Source: Brevundimonas bullata (GTDB lineage Bacteria; Pseudomonadota; Alphaproteobacteria; Caulobacterales; Caulobacteraceae). From it: a stretch of DNA of 64,000 nucleotides. Location: positions 124,001-188,000 of the forward strand of contig NZ_QLLC01000001.1 of the NCBI RefSeq assembly GCF_003350205.1, in the 5' to 3' direction. Of this stretch, positions 57,553-63,263 are shown one piece after another. The position numbers and the translations under genes are program-made. The stretch's first letter is position 1. Each line of letters opens with the position of its first letter. The notes under the pieces were generated by a model. The model was not told the origin of the DNA, did no database searches, and was given only the letters and a program-made list of their open reading frames with translations.

Positions 57553-57628
<76 letters not shown>

Positions 57629-57630
57629 TC

Positions 57631-57661
57631 GAAGGCCTCGCGGACATCCCGCGGGGCCTTC
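57631..57661 (+). terminator. Terminator hairpin after tRNA-Ala copy 1
   Basis: GAAGGCCTCGCGG pairs with CCGCGGGGCCTTC (13 bp, one G-U) around ACATC, right after the tRNA 3' end. There is little T-run afterwards. The same hairpin design follows copy 2. Confidence 0.65.
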
Positions 57662-57708
57662 GTCCATTCTACCCCGGTCCGCCGGGCCATACCCAGGCCG
57701 CAAGGCAC

Positions 57709-57784
<76 letters not shown>

Positions 57785-58434: not shown

Positions 58435-59430
58435 GTGAGCTCATCGCAATCCCCGGCCCCGCTGGCCGCCTCCTCCGCCGAGGACAAGACCAAGACCCGC
58501 GCCATCGTCCCCGTGTCGATGCAGGGCTATGACGCCGACTTCCAGGCCTTCTCCGACGCCCTCGGCGCCTCGTTCGCCCGCTACGGCTTCGCCGTCATCG
58601 CCGACCACGGTCTGGACCAGGCGACCATCGACGCCGCCCTCGCCGACGCCAAGGCCTTCTTCGCCCTGCCCGAAGACGTGAAGCGCCAGTATCACCAGCC
58701 CGGCACGGGCGGCGCGCGCGGCCTGACCCCCTTCGGCGTCGAAGCCGCCAAGGGCGCCGCCGCCGTGGACCTGAAGGAGTTCTGGCACGTCGGCCGCGAA
58801 CTGCCCGAGGGCCATCCCTATCGCCAATACATGCGCGACAACGTCTGGCCGACCGAGATCGAGGGCTTCCAGGCCCACCTCTATGGGATGTTCGAAGCCC
58901 TGGATCAGCTGGGCCGCAAGATCCTCAAGGCCATCGCCCGCTACATGAAGCTGGGCGACGACTATTTCGAGGACAAGGTCCAACTGGGCAACAGCGTCCT
59001 GCGCATGCTGCACTATCCGCCGGTCCCCGCCGATGCGCCCGGCGTGCGCGCCGGCGCCCATGAGGACATCAACGTCATCACCCTGCTGCTGGGCGCCGAA
59101 GAAGCCGGGCTGCAGTTGAAGGACGCCGACGGCGAATGGCTGGACATCGCCCCGCCGCCGGGCGCCCTGGTGGTCAACATCGGCGACATGCTGCAGCGCC
59201 TGGTCAACCACGTCCTGCCGTCGACGACGCACCGCGTGGTCAATCCCGCGCCTGAGCGTCGCGGCTTCGCCCGCTACTCGACGCCCTTCTTCCTGCACTT
59301 CAACCCGGACTTCCCGATCAAGACCCTGCCCTCGACCATCACCCCGGAAAACCCGGACCGCTACGCCGGCAAGACCATCCTGGCCGAGGACTTCCTGATG
59401 GAGCGCCTCAAGGAAATCCGCCTGATCTAG
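58435..59430 (+). CDS. 2-oxoglutarate/Fe(II)-dependent oxygenase, isopenicillin N synthase-like
   Basis: The 331-residue protein is of the IPNS/DIOX family. The iron ligands are in HEDINVI (His and Asp, about residues 210-216) and the distal HRVVNP histidine (about 266), and 2-oxoglutarate contacts are in RYSTPFFLHFNPD (about 277-289). The N-terminal half has the characteristic GFAVIADHGLD...KAFFALPEDVKRQY and GARGLTPFG. Start GTG 58435; no ATG is closer. Substrate unknown: plant-type hormone-like or modified amino acid substrates are possible. Terminator at 59458. Confidence 0.88.
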   Translation: MSSSQSPAPLAASSAEDKTKTRAIVPVSMQGYDADFQAFSDALGASFARYGFAVIADHGLDQATIDAALADAKAFFALPEDVKRQYHQPGTGGARGLTPFGVEAAKGAAAVDLKEFWHVGRELPEGHPYRQYMRDNVWPTEIEGFQAHLYGMFEALDQLGRKILKAIARYMKLGDDYFEDKVQLGNSVLRMLHYPPVPADAPGVRAGAHEDINVITLLLGAEEAGLQLKDADGEWLDIAPPPGALVVNIGDMLQRLVNHVLPSTTHRVVNPAPERRGFARYSTPFFLHFNPDFPIKTLPSTITPENPDRYAGKTILAEDFLMERLKEIRLI

Positions 59431-59511: not shown

Positions 59512-61428
59512 TCAGCGTGCGATGCGCAGCCGGGTGATGTCGCGGCCAATGGCCTGGAAAGCCTCGGACAGGTCTGTGTTCTTGTTCGGCGTAAAGGCGT
59601 GAGCCGCGCTCGTCGCGCATGCCCCCATGACCTCGCGCGCGGTGTCGATGCCATTTCCGCCCGTGGCGGTGCTCAGATTGAAGCCGACAGTATAGACAAC
59701 GACGCCTTCCTTCTTCATCGCATCGCACAGGGCCACAGATTGCGCGAAGGGCGTGCCGTTCGGTGCGCTGCAATTGATCTGATAATTGGTGTTGCCCGCC
59801 CCATTGGTCGGCGCATCCTTGGAAATCACCCCCTGACAATAGGGGTTGTTGAACTCGCCATCCGTCATCAGAACGACCGCCTTCAAGGTCTTGGAAGGCT
59901 CGTAGACGTTTGGCGCGCTCGCCGCCGGCCAAATAGAGCTAAAGTTCGGCGACACCGCATACCAGCCCCATTCGATGCCGATCTGACCCGCCGTGGAGCC
60001 GACCGCTTGATAGGCGTCGATAAGGTCGTTCAGCCCTGTGACCCCATTCTTGGTTTCGGCCAAGTGCGTAAGGGGCGTAACCTGGTTGGTCAGGCAACGA
60101 TTGTCGGAGTGAGGATAGTTACGACCGACCCAGTTGTTCGAGTCAGGCGTACGATCAGTTGGGACCAGATCTCCGCTCGCGTTCTTAACGGTCCACAGGC
60201 GTTCGCTGACGCAGGTGCTGGATGGGAGCATTCTCACCGCCGTCGTGCTGTTCCGACCGATAAAATACCGCTCCCGACAGCCGTCATAGCCGCACTGAAC
60301 CGCACCTCCGCCACTGTAGGTTGATTGGTCCGGCCCTCTAAGGCCGACGCTGAACTGATGCTCTGAAATCTTGGCGACTTGGAAATAGGCGCCGTTGAGA
60401 GTGGTCATGCCCCGGACGCCAGAGATCTTCACCCAATCACCGGTTGAGAGGGTATGGTTTTCGGAAGTGACGACCACTTCGCAGGTCGTCGTCCAGCAAC
60501 GACGAACTGTGCCGCTATTCTTGCTTCCGCCCCCAGAATAGCTGGAGAGCTGGAACGTATTGCCGCTCACAGACGACACCCGATGAATACGATTGTTCAG
60601 CCCGTAGGAGGCGTTGCTGACGTCGCTGATCCACACGTAATCGTTCACCGCTAAGCCGTGATTGCTCGCGGTAAAGACGCCCGACGAGATTTGCGAAATC
60701 GACTTAGCCGGGTCTGCCCAACCAACAGCGCTGATGTCCGTGGTTCCTTTCAGCGGTCCGCGCACGCTGTTAGCGTAGTTGCCCAGGTTGACGCCCATCG
60801 AGTAGGGCACGAGAGCGACTCGAGTAGTAAAGGGAGACTGCTCTTTCTGAACCACGATGGCGACCAACTCCTTGGCGGCCTTCTTCAGGCTGGTGAGCGC
60901 CGAACCTGCCATCGAACCGGTGATGTCCAGAACCAGCGCCACCTCGACGTTGCGCGACGCGCGCAAGACTTCAGAGGAGCTGCCGACCGGCAGGCGATCG
61001 TCCATCAGGGTCCCGTAGGGCGGCAGGACGATGTTGGCGACCAGCACCTTCACCTGAACCTTCGCCGTGGCGATGATGGTGTTTCCATCCAGCCTGAAGT
61101 TCGCGGAGTCCCGAAGCAACTTGCCGTTCTCGTCCGTCTCGAAATAGGAAGGCATATTGGCCTTCAGCGCGGCCAGGCCAGCCTTGTTGAGATCAGCGTC
61201 TTCGGTGAACGGGGTCCGGGCGGCGGCCAGGGCGGCGGCGTCCAGGGCGTCCTGCAGATTAGCCCTGACCTTTGACGCCTGGTGGATGTCGATGGCGCCC
61301 AGGGTGATCATCAGCAGCACCGGCAGGGCCAGGGCGAACATCATCGCCACATTGCCGCGCGTGCCTGCCATGAAGCGCGCCGCGAAGCGACGCGTCGCAC
61401 CCGTCAGTCGGCTCAAACCGTTCTTCAC
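59512..61428 (-). CDS. TadG-like pilus assembly protein with von Willebrand A domain and an inserted tandem repeat
   Basis: The 638-residue protein has an N-terminal TadE/TadG-like membrane helix (RGNVAMMFALALPVLLMITLGAID, residues about 24-47), with the helix-rich region to about 150. The vWA domain has MIDAS-like DITGS (residues 168-172), and a late vWA strand reads LKAVVLMTDGEFN near 530. Between about residues 248 and 390 lie two repeats of about 65 residues (HGLAVNDYVWISDV...SGGG... and HTLSTGDWVKISGV...SGGG...), each with nearby Cys pairs and a beta-rich look, similar in style to E1-FCCH-type repeats of phage tail proteins. Tad pili need TadG for assembly; the inserted module is unusual. 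No other tad gene is in the window. Confidence 0.75.
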   Translation of the reverse strand: MKNGLSRLTGATRRFAARFMAGTRGNVAMMFALALPVLLMITLGAIDIHQASKVRANLQDALDAAALAAARTPFTEDADLNKAGLAALKANMPSYFETDENGKLLRDSANFRLDGNTIIATAKVQVKVLVANIVLPPYGTLMDDRLPVGSSSEVLRASRNVEVALVLDITGSMAGSALTSLKKAAKELVAIVVQKEQSPFTTRVALVPYSMGVNLGNYANSVRGPLKGTTDISAVGWADPAKSISQISSGVFTASNHGLAVNDYVWISDVSNASYGLNNRIHRVSSVSGNTFQLSSYSGGGSKNSGTVRRCWTTTCEVVVTSENHTLSTGDWVKISGVRGMTTLNGAYFQVAKISEHQFSVGLRGPDQSTYSGGGAVQCGYDGCRERYFIGRNSTTAVRMLPSSTCVSERLWTVKNASGDLVPTDRTPDSNNWVGRNYPHSDNRCLTNQVTPLTHLAETKNGVTGLNDLIDAYQAVGSTAGQIGIEWGWYAVSPNFSSIWPAASAPNVYEPSKTLKAVVLMTDGEFNNPYCQGVISKDAPTNGAGNTNYQINCSAPNGTPFAQSVALCDAMKKEGVVVYTVGFNLSTATGGNGIDTAREVMGACATSAAHAFTPNKNTDLSEAFQAIGRDITRLRIAR

Positions 61429-61552: not shown

Positions 61553-62257
61553 CTAGCGATCAACGCAGGCGTCCAGCCCCTGCTGACGCACCGTGCCCAT
61601 GGCGGCCTGGATGCGGCTGGCCCGACGGCGGACATAGGGGCCGGGATCGGCGGCCCGATAACGGCGCGGGCTGGGCAGGATGGCGGCCAGGCGAGCGGCC
61701 TCGCGCGCCGTCAGGTTCTCGGCGCTCTTGTTGAACCAGTGACGCGAGGCGGCCTCGGCGCCATAGACGCCCGGCGCCCATTCGGCGACGTTCAGATACA
61801 TCTCCATGATCCGCCGCTTGCCCCAGACGGCCTCGATCAGGCCGGTGTAGCCGACCTCCAGACCCTTCCTCACCCAGTCGCGGCTGGGCCAGAGGAAGAC
61901 GTTCTTGGCCGTCTGCTGGCTGATGGTTGAGGCGCCGCGCCGCTTGTCCGAGCCGCGCTGTTCGGCGCGTTCGTTGGCCTCCATCGCCTTCTGGATGGCC
62001 TCGACGTCAAAGCCGTGGTGCTGACAGAAGCGCGCGTCCTCGGCGGCGATCACCGCCTCGACCAGACGCGGCGAGATATGGTCCAGCGAGCGCCAGCGAT
62101 AGTCCATGCCCTGCCCCGCCGCCGCCTGCTGGATCATCAGGATGGTGAACAGCGGCGGCACGAAGCGATGCAGCACCACCCCGCCGATCGGGATCAGAGC
62201 CAGGATCAGCAGCAGGGTCAGCAGCGGGCGCCGCTTGCGGGTCTTCGCACGGGTCAT
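61553..62257 (-). CDS. mtgA: Monofunctional biosynthetic peptidoglycan transglycosylase
   Basis: The 234-residue GT51 enzyme has an N-terminal membrane helix (RPLLTLLLILALIPIGGVVL) and the transglycosylase motifs EDARFCQHHGFD (catalytic Glu, about 73-84), RGASTISQQTAKNVFLWPSRDWVRKGLE (about 106-133), and KRRIMEMYLNVAEW near 146-159. It polymerises lipid II into glycan strands at the inner membrane and lacks a transpeptidase domain. Confidence 0.94.
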   Translation of the reverse strand: MTRAKTRKRRPLLTLLLILALIPIGGVVLHRFVPPLFTILMIQQAAAGQGMDYRWRSLDHISPRLVEAVIAAEDARFCQHHGFDVEAIQKAMEANERAEQRGSDKRRGASTISQQTAKNVFLWPSRDWVRKGLEVGYTGLIEAVWGKRRIMEMYLNVAEWAPGVYGAEAASRHWFNKSAENLTAREAARLAAILPSPRRYRAADPGPYVRRRASRIQAAMGTVRQQGLDACVDR

Positions 62258-62297: not shown

Positions 62298-63263
62298 TTA
62301 CAGCGAGACCACGCCCGCCTGACCGTCTTCGTCGGCCCAGGCGATGCGGGCCGAACCCGCGCTCATGGCCAGGGCGACGATGGGCGCGCCCTTGTCTTCC
62401 TTGATGAAAGCCAGCCCCTGCCCCGCCGGATCGGCCCACCAGACCCGGCCGTCTTCCAGACCTGCGGCCAGTCGCCCATGCTGTTCGGCGGCGGCGACGT
62501 GGGCGATCAGGGTCGTCTCGTCAAAGCCGATCTCGGTCGCCTCGCGCCCCATCGGGCCATTGGCGCCGATGAAGGGCCACAACACCACGCCCTGCGCCCC
62601 CGAGGTCGCCAGCAGCTGACCCTTGGCCATGAAGGCGAAGCTCTTCACCTTGGTCGGATAGCCGCCCATCCGCATGTTCTTCTGATCCTTCAGCCGCCAG
62701 CCGTGCAGTTGCGCGTCCTGCATCGAGGTGACGACGAAGGCGCCGTCGGGCGAGAAGGCCACCGCCAGGTGCGACCCGGCCCAGGCCAGCTTGACCGGCT
62801 GCTGCTGCTCGATGCGCGCGTACCACAGGGCCGCCCCGCCATAGGTGGCGGTGGCGATGCGCCGTCCCTTGGGGTCAAAGGCCACGCCAGATACGGTGCG
62901 TTCGTGCTGAAAGTCGCGGCGGAAGCTCACGTCCTTCACATCGATCACCGACAGGGTGCGCCCCGCGGAAAAGGCGATCAGGCCGGAGGCCGGCGAGGCG
63001 GCGATGGAATCGATCCATTGACCCTTGGCGGTGGCCAGCAGCACGGCCTCGCCCTCGCGGCTCCACACCACCTTGCCGTCGTCGCCGCCGGTGACGACGC
63101 CCTCGCCCGAGGGGTGGACGGCGGCGCACAGGATGGCGCCGTCATGGACCTCGCTGCGGGCGCCGTTCTCGAACCGCACCGAGCCGTCGCCCAGGGCGAA
63201 GATCGCGCCCGTCTTGTCGAACAGGGCGGCGGTGACCTGGGCGTCGAAGGAGAAGGCAGTCAT
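62298..63263 (-). CDS. WD40-like repeat protein
   Basis: The 321-residue soluble protein is predicted as a beta-propeller. Repeats of the type GDGSVRFENG..EVHDGAILCAAVHPSGEGVVTGGDDGKVVW, then FSAGRTLSVIDVKD, IATATYGGAALW, HLAVAFSPDGAFVVTSMQDAQLHGWRL give about seven blades. WD40 proteins are usually scaffolds; the partner is unknown. It is on the opposite strand from the next gene (63360), with about 96 bases between. Confidence 0.85.
   Translation of the reverse strand: MTAFSFDAQVTAALFDKTGAIFALGDGSVRFENGARSEVHDGAILCAAVHPSGEGVVTGGDDGKVVWSREGEAVLLATAKGQWIDSIAASPASGLIAFSAGRTLSVIDVKDVSFRRDFQHERTVSGVAFDPKGRRIATATYGGAALWYARIEQQQPVKLAWAGSHLAVAFSPDGAFVVTSMQDAQLHGWRLKDQKNMRMGGYPTKVKSFAFMAKGQLLATSGAQGVVLWPFIGANGPMGREATEIGFDETTLIAHVAAAEQHGRLAAGLEDGRVWWADPAGQGLAFIKEDKGAPIVALAMSAGSARIAWADEDGQAGVVSL

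Follow-up and report, generated by a model that had tools for sequence, protein, structure and literature searches.

The window analysed here, a stretch of 64,000 nucleotides from Brevundimonas bullata (contig NZ_QLLC01000001.1), contains a gene for a CpaL/TadG-like minor pilin with a vWA domain, and its features and conserved neighbours are collected in Table 1.

Table 1. The cpaL-like gene, the parts of its product and the conserved neighbours, with positions in the window.
Feature	Position	Strand	Basis
Gene (GTG start) for a CpaL/TadG-like vWA minor pilin of 638 aa	59512..61428	-	Pfam Tad, E1_FCCH, VWA, TadE; AF2 model pLDDT 90.6
Pilin-like module, residues 22-160, Tad domain 25-71	60949..61365	-	PF13400 2.6e-10; model helix 23-71
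vWA first part, residues 161-222	60763..60948	-	PF00092
MIDAS DITGS, residues 168-172	60913-60927	-	D168 and S172 invariant in 77 proteins (best 80 of 274 places)
FCCH module 1, residues 249-311	60496..60684	-	Module profile 57.4 bits; Pfam E1_FCCH
CxxxxC hairpin between modules, C311/C316	60481..60498	-	Between model strands 306-311 and 317-322
FCCH module 2, residues 316-379	60292..60483	-	Module profile 79.7 bits; Pfam stretch 320-378
Second CxxxxC hairpin, C379/C384	60277..60294	-	Cys conservation in two-module proteins
vWA second part, residues 400-638, MIDAS T479 and D523	59515..60231	-	Fold match to Mfa5 pilus tip 6tnj, Z 21.6
Head stretch (residues 162-621) judged by comparison to be exchanged	59566..60945	-	Identity profile of 34 swapped pairs; silent sites
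Conserved tail at the C-terminus (residues 622-638), where the exchanged stretch has its 3' edge	59515..59565	-	Swapped pairs 0.88 identical here
2OG-Fe(II) oxygenase, conserved neighbour	58435..59430	+	Synteny
Transglycosylase (mtgA-like), conserved neighbour	61553..62257	-	Synteny
WD40-repeat protein, conserved neighbour	62298..63263	-	Synteny

The N-terminus of the protein is that of a Tad/TadE-type pilin, with both PF13400 and PF07811 over the Pfam cut-offs, in agreement with the earlier note, which had called it a Tad-type protein from the letters of the DNA. In the sequence alignment the MIDAS is complete, with D168, T170 and S172 before the insert and T479 and D523 after it. The full-length AF2 model (77 sequences; pLDDT 90.6, pTM 0.78, insert blocks at 84-98) likewise has the vWA fold split around the insert, and the earlier claim that the repeats interrupt this fold is thereby confirmed. 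The model resembles the vWA domains of the pilus-tip adhesins Mfa5 (6tnj, Z 21.6), RrgA (2ww8, 18.8), SpaC (6m3y, 18.5), GBS104 and PilB, with Z from 17.5 to 21.6 for the group. Some of these adhesins carry inserted arms in the vWA domain.

The gene is an orphan, located on contig C1 of the 85-contig assembly, while the matches to Flp pilins are on contigs C78 and C8. Its neighbours encode an EPSP synthase, the 2OG oxygenase, the transglycosylase, the WD40 protein and a hydrolase, which is not a phage gene context. In Brevundimonas this protein corresponds to the minor pilin CpaL/TadG, expected at the tip of the Tad pilus; its incorporation there would follow from the position predicted for CpaL in the accessible parts of two papers (PMC12607857, PMC13170226). 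Among the homologues, four have an open frame that extends upstream by about 100 to 270 residues more than usual, reflecting either extended N-termini or merely open upstream frames. Elsewhere in the window, two tandem tRNA-Ala(GGC) genes on the plus strand (57553-57628 and 57709-57784) account for a repeated ORF translation at 57553-57784.

The insert, residues 245-390, consists of two related beta modules of 63 and 64 residues, delimited with a module profile built in this analysis. Aligned with each other the modules score 69, compared with 14.3 +/- 5.6 and a maximum of 46 for shuffled sequences (n = 2000). Both have a [GN]DxVxISxV core and SGGG, and each is closed by a CxxxxC pair (C311/C316 and C379/C384), so that the two tandem beta-rich repeats with a GD.V.ISxV-type core, SGGG and a Cys pair that had been described from the letters are indeed present. 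Among two-module proteins from the best 80 of 274 places, the first Cys pair occurs in 59/59 and the second in 58/59, and disulfides may form at both, judging by the spacing of the Cys across the turn between strands. In Pfam the insert matches E1_FCCH (PF16190) with 66.3 bits in two stretches, where the curated cut-off is 29.5. A PDB sequence search returned UBA6 (E 0.005) and UBA1 (E 0.054), both weak. The insert modelled alone (pLDDT 90.7, pTM 0.85) matches the fold of the UBA6 FCCH domain (7pvn, Z 12.5, rmsd 1.3 A, 76 residues, 30% identity), the tail tube of phage T1 (9l0f, Z 9.7) and the endosialidase of phage phi92 (4hiz, Z 8.0). In Pfam and NCBIfam only Tad, TadE, VWA and FCCH are over cut-off, with no ubiquitin E1 adenylation or catalytic domain around FCCH, and the NCBIfam Ube1 model scores 17.4 bits against a cut-off of 750. 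No second copy of the insert was found elsewhere in the genome of the window, the single place being the cpaL-like gene. FCCH is a common beta module without a single function.

The earlier note had proposed a survey of homologues for the insert, and within Brevundimonas the insert is frequent and also absent at some loci. Our locus set covers 120 of 131 congeners and 121 loci, one genome (G104) contributing twice and eleven congeners lying outside the set; 98 loci have two modules, three have one and 20 have none, so that the insert is present in 101/121. PF16190 was detected in 101/131 congeners (81 over cut-off) and in 108/299 genomes sampled from the family, belonging to 4/22 genera. Beyond Brevundimonas the insert occurs in Caulobacter, Devosia and Hyphomonadaceae, and the module pair is seen in several further alphaproteobacterial families. 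For wider comparison we named 78 loci from the best 80 of 274 places, and aligned 76 of them with the window protein after dropping the fragments L162 and L174. By Pfam, Tad is present in 77/77 of these aligned proteins, E1_FCCH in 66/77 and VWA in 59/77. Seven have no module, nine have one, 59 have two, one has three and one has four (n = 77), shares that are not population frequencies because the loci come from the best 80 of 274 places. The proteins with three and four modules (L146 and L176) are from alphaproteobacterial metagenome assemblies. Two modules are retained in most Caulobacterales examined. Mapped on a tree built from the vWA and pilin parts, the number of modules requires 12 changes; the trees in this work are quick searches with many open forks.

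Empty-site homologues were found in Caulobacter ginsengisoli, Bosea, Hyphomicrobium and others, where a loop of 39 to 46 residues takes the position of the insert; several of them also have a CxxxxC pair. The FCCH-free loci examined in Brevundimonas (L262, L263, L264 and others) are of a different kind, with an unrelated insert of about 105-125 residues at the FCCH site that bears the motif GCxExRPxPxDIRDTxP..MFVPYFxPDxPD, and for which no Pfam match was found in the three alleles examined.

Among 24 two-module Brevundimonas proteins, mean identity is 0.60 for the pilin part, 0.63 and 0.54 for the two vWA parts, and 0.41 and 0.40 for the modules; among the 59 two-module proteins from the best 80 of 274 places, the corresponding values are 0.37, 0.60 and 0.49, and again 0.41 and 0.40. 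Therefore, divergence of the modules within the genus is already at the between-family level. Insert identity correlates with vWA identity at 0.45 and 0.63, values that are not decisive.

The gene order WD40 - transglycosylase - cpaL - 2OG oxygenase is widely kept in Brevundimonas, including at loci with one-module alleles, and the FCCH-free alleles examined retain WD40 and transglycosylase. Pairwise comparison covered 99 loci with at least two of the three neighbours (4775 pairs). Between close species the neighbour genes are about 96% identical, and the vWA+FCCH head is either conserved or replaced: in the 97 pairs with neighbour identity of at least 0.95, insert identity is below 0.50 in 34 and at least 0.65 in 63, with no pair between. 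When pairs were picked on two neighbours, the third neighbour was below 0.85 in 0/93, 0/108 and 0/87. The 34 swapped pairs, which involve 29 locus labels, are not independent, since disjoint close pairs give 6 swapped out of 21. Averaged over swapped pairs, identity is 0.65-0.90 along the pilin part; the insert has 0.29-0.43, the second vWA part has 0.41-0.67 as far as residue 621, and the final 17 residues have 0.88. The pilin part itself has a median of 0.82 (range 0.69-0.94) and is thus also lowered, indicating that the 5' junction is not sharp everywhere.

At four-fold sites, swapped pairs are 0.832 identical in the flanks, 0.637 in the pilin part, 0.468 in the first vWA part, 0.394 in the insert and 0.389 in the second vWA part, compared with 0.622, 0.508 and 0.478 for flanks, insert and second vWA part of 60 random distant pairs. 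Silent sites in swapped heads are therefore no better conserved than in distant pairs, and the pattern is one of replacement of DNA, not only of selection on the protein. Diversifying selection on amino acids alone is rejected for these pairs, as the silent sites are equally divergent. In conserved pairs the silent sites of the head are at 0.65-0.71 and those of the flanks at 0.836, so that gradual divergence adds to replacement.

Individual heads also bear on the direction of exchange. The window's head differs from the heads of both nearest relatives and is most like that of a lineage further away: judged by flanks, the nearest relatives are G009 (0.966) and G032 (0.960), with insert identities of 0.41 and 0.39, whereas the more distant G056 (flanks 0.885) reaches 0.68 in the insert and 0.76 in the second vWA part, and G013 (flanks 0.883) reaches 0.68 in the insert. 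At the DNA level, the flanks of the window share 89-98% identity with B. bullata L177, which is identical to G009 at the cpaL locus, beginning at the transglycosylase, and 93-95% within the oxygenase; in the insert the figure falls to 46-52%. Further, G027 and G004 have flanks at 0.874 and head parts at 0.96, 0.85 and 0.92, whereas G027 and its nearest relative G026 have flanks at 0.968 and the same head parts at 0.63, 0.33 (insert) and 0.57. Since the heads of G027 and G004 are about as alike as, or more alike than, their flanks, this case points to movement between lineages. G112 has a pilin part like those of its neighbours (0.79-0.82) and a head closest to that of G105, and a two-module head is present in G090, which groups inside a clade whose other alleles are FCCH-free. 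Mapping 16 allele classes on the flank tree takes 23 changes, where the minimum is 15.

Tandem cpaL copies, mostly with similar pilin parts and different heads, were seen in several Brevundimonas genomes (L125, L266, L273, L276, L281, L338 and L340). In the genus-set loci, four FCCH tandem pairs with two full-length copies each have pilin identities of 0.82-0.85 and insert identities of 0.37-0.46; in other tandem pairs, some truncated or FCCH-free, the values are 0.74-0.96 and 0.36-0.84.

The kinship with phage tail proteins noticed earlier is real: the insert matches PHROGs phrog_584, a major tail protein (1.9e-11), among viral proteins it best matches a Caudovirales protein that contains FCCH (E 2.7e-6), and common ancestry of the CpaL and phage modules is clear. 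Scanning viral contigs with the window insert alone confirmed 0/19 candidates, while a search with the module alignment gave 383 relatives, of which the best 80 were fetched. In these best 80 of 383, ORFs with modules are mostly 550 to 1035 residues long with one to four modules, the nearest phage module is 0.68 identical to a CpaL module, and the nearest other module is viral for 9/126 CpaL modules. Phage records name such proteins tail tubular protein B, phage stabilization protein, tail protein or FCCH protein. These matches, and the composition of the insert, could suggest recent capture from a phage tail gene. Its GC content is 56.6%, against 64.7% in the pilin part, 60.1-60.2% in the vWA parts and 65.5% in the window, and its GC3 of 0.692 is below the value of 0.773 +/- 0.033 that codon usage in the remaining gene predicts (p ~0.011). 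The lower GC reported by the earlier note is therefore genuine, but it is modest, and the drop extends across the whole head rather than being confined to the insert. Further, the CxxxxC pair is found in 113/134 CpaL modules and in 0/102 viral modules from the best 80 of 383, and against the same viral set the window modules are closer to CpaL modules (nearest 0.59 and 0.70) than to phage modules (0.48 and 0.50). A module tree, which retained 73/102 viral and 126/134 CpaL modules after removal of viral modules below 55 residues, CpaL modules below 50 residues and near-copies at an identity of at least 0.8, does not reject a single CpaL clade (p-AU 0.961), although its 65 columns give little resolution. 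With two modules in 98/121 Brevundimonas loci and in several other alphaproteobacterial families as well, the insert is an old feature rather than one lately gained from a phage, and we regard recent capture as very improbable. The interpretation given in the earlier note is partly supported: a protein of the Tad apparatus does carry an inserted pair of modules akin to those of phage tails, in a head with signs of exchange, but capture from a phage in recent times is not supported, and what moves between Tad tips is the vWA+FCCH head as a whole.

If heads were sorted within lineages and not transferred between species, through gene conversion between tandem cpaL copies or their differential loss, close relatives could also come to differ in this way, and copies with different heads on similar pilin parts do exist, as in the two adjacent copies of L125. 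However, most swapped genomes, including that of the window, have a single match genome-wide, the G027 and G004 heads (0.85-0.96) are matched with flanks at only 0.87, and the FCCH head of G090 sits inside an FCCH-free allele clade, all of which makes this account unlikely. On another reading, the insert might act as a passive spacer or stabilise the fold without taking part in recognition, and would vary because constraint on it is relaxed. Such a role would suit a common beta module that has no single function, and the range of 0-4 copies among loci from the best 80 of 274 places implies that the insert is dispensable in some lineages. But relaxed constraint on the protein cannot give replaced silent sites, two copies are retained in most Caulobacterales examined, and the Cys pairs are kept; a passive element therefore seems rather improbable to us.

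Taken together, we hypothesize that the protein is an exchangeable Tad tip head on a pilin-like anchor, with the FCCH arm as its most variable part, a reading to which we assign a probability of roughly 0.66; the architecture, the fold, the ladder of copy numbers and the head replacement in it were established by computation. The pilin-like anchor carries the vWA head with its MIDAS, and a loop of the head holds two tandem FCCH modules, each closed by CxxxxC, that are stackable from 0 to 4 copies at one site. In this model, recombination in Brevundimonas exchanges the whole head (about residues 162-621) while keeping the neighbours and preserving the pilin part and the final 17 residues better than the head, and some genomes have two tandem copies with different heads. 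The FCCH pair may act as an exposed arm, with a putative binding function, that sets what the tip touches, so that head exchange could let a lineage change its surface specificity or escape pilus-directed phages while the pilus machine is kept. More tentatively, and with rather less than even odds, cpaL might be a single-locus tip-switching system, in which heads that differ in their FCCH arms, or that bear an unrelated insert, circulate among Brevundimonas by recombination at the conserved ends of the gene, pilin and tail, with tandem copies as a store of alternative tips and with pilus-directed phages or surfaces selecting the switches. Through head exchange these bacteria may alter their attachment targets or the phages able to bind them, and since the exchange takes place between close species, selection on pilus tips becomes directly testable with natural alleles.

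Among known systems, the insert is like E1_FCCH (PF16190) of UBA1/UBA6 and of phage tail proteins in sequence profile and fold, but differs from E1_FCCH proteins in having no E1 context, in its tandem copies and in being inserted in a vWA domain, and the viral modules (best 80 of 383) lack the CxxxxC pair. The closest protein is CpaL of Caulobacter crescentus (CCNA_0199), described in the accessible text of a 2025 paper as a pilin and vWA protein with two tandem beta-rich domains and proposed as the Tad pilus mechanosensor, whose deletion alters phiCbK sensitivity and surface sensing (PMC12607857). Both proteins have a pilin-like N-terminus, a MIDAS vWA domain split by two beta-rich domains, and an orphan gene outside the pilus cluster (PMC12607857). 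The exposed, adhesive or sensing role suggested for the insert by the earlier note would fit this published work on CpaL. For the C. vibrioides homologue (L112), Pfam reports Tad and FCCH domains (93.7 bits for FCCH); the protein has two modules, and a 2OG oxygenase is encoded beside its gene. The beta-rich region is thus already known, whereas in the accessible text of that paper no strong Dali match is reported for it, the terms FCCH and ubiquitin are absent, and no head exchange is described (PMC12607857); new here are the FCCH naming and the head-exchange behaviour. With this name, the unexplained part of CpaL acquires a fold, a control in the empty-site homologues, and natural variants carrying 0-4 copies. 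Our literature searches found no paper for E1_FCCH by name or for FCCH with pilus, no pilus topic, judging by titles, for FCCH with phage or tail, and no paper on Brevundimonas Tad pilus recombination or hypervariable Tad minor pilins.

The Kil/TadG tips of Myxococcus xanthus are similar in placing a TadG-like minor pilin with a modular C-terminal domain at the Tad tip, but there the variety comes from several minor pilin complexes per genome, and the term FCCH is absent from the accessible text (PMC12075869). The nearest precedent for an exchanged vWA tip is ComC of Acinetobacter baumannii, described in the accessible text as a vWA tip adhesin with an insertion, at a locus replaced by recombination, and compared there to an interchangeable tool head (PMC10374093). 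ComC belongs to a type IVa pilus, has a finger insert and lies in a seven-gene T4aP recombination block, whereas here the pilus is of the Tad type, the insert is FCCH and exchange occurs inside one gene (PMC10374093). The interchangeable-head idea from the type IVa pili of Acinetobacter would thereby extend to Tad pili.
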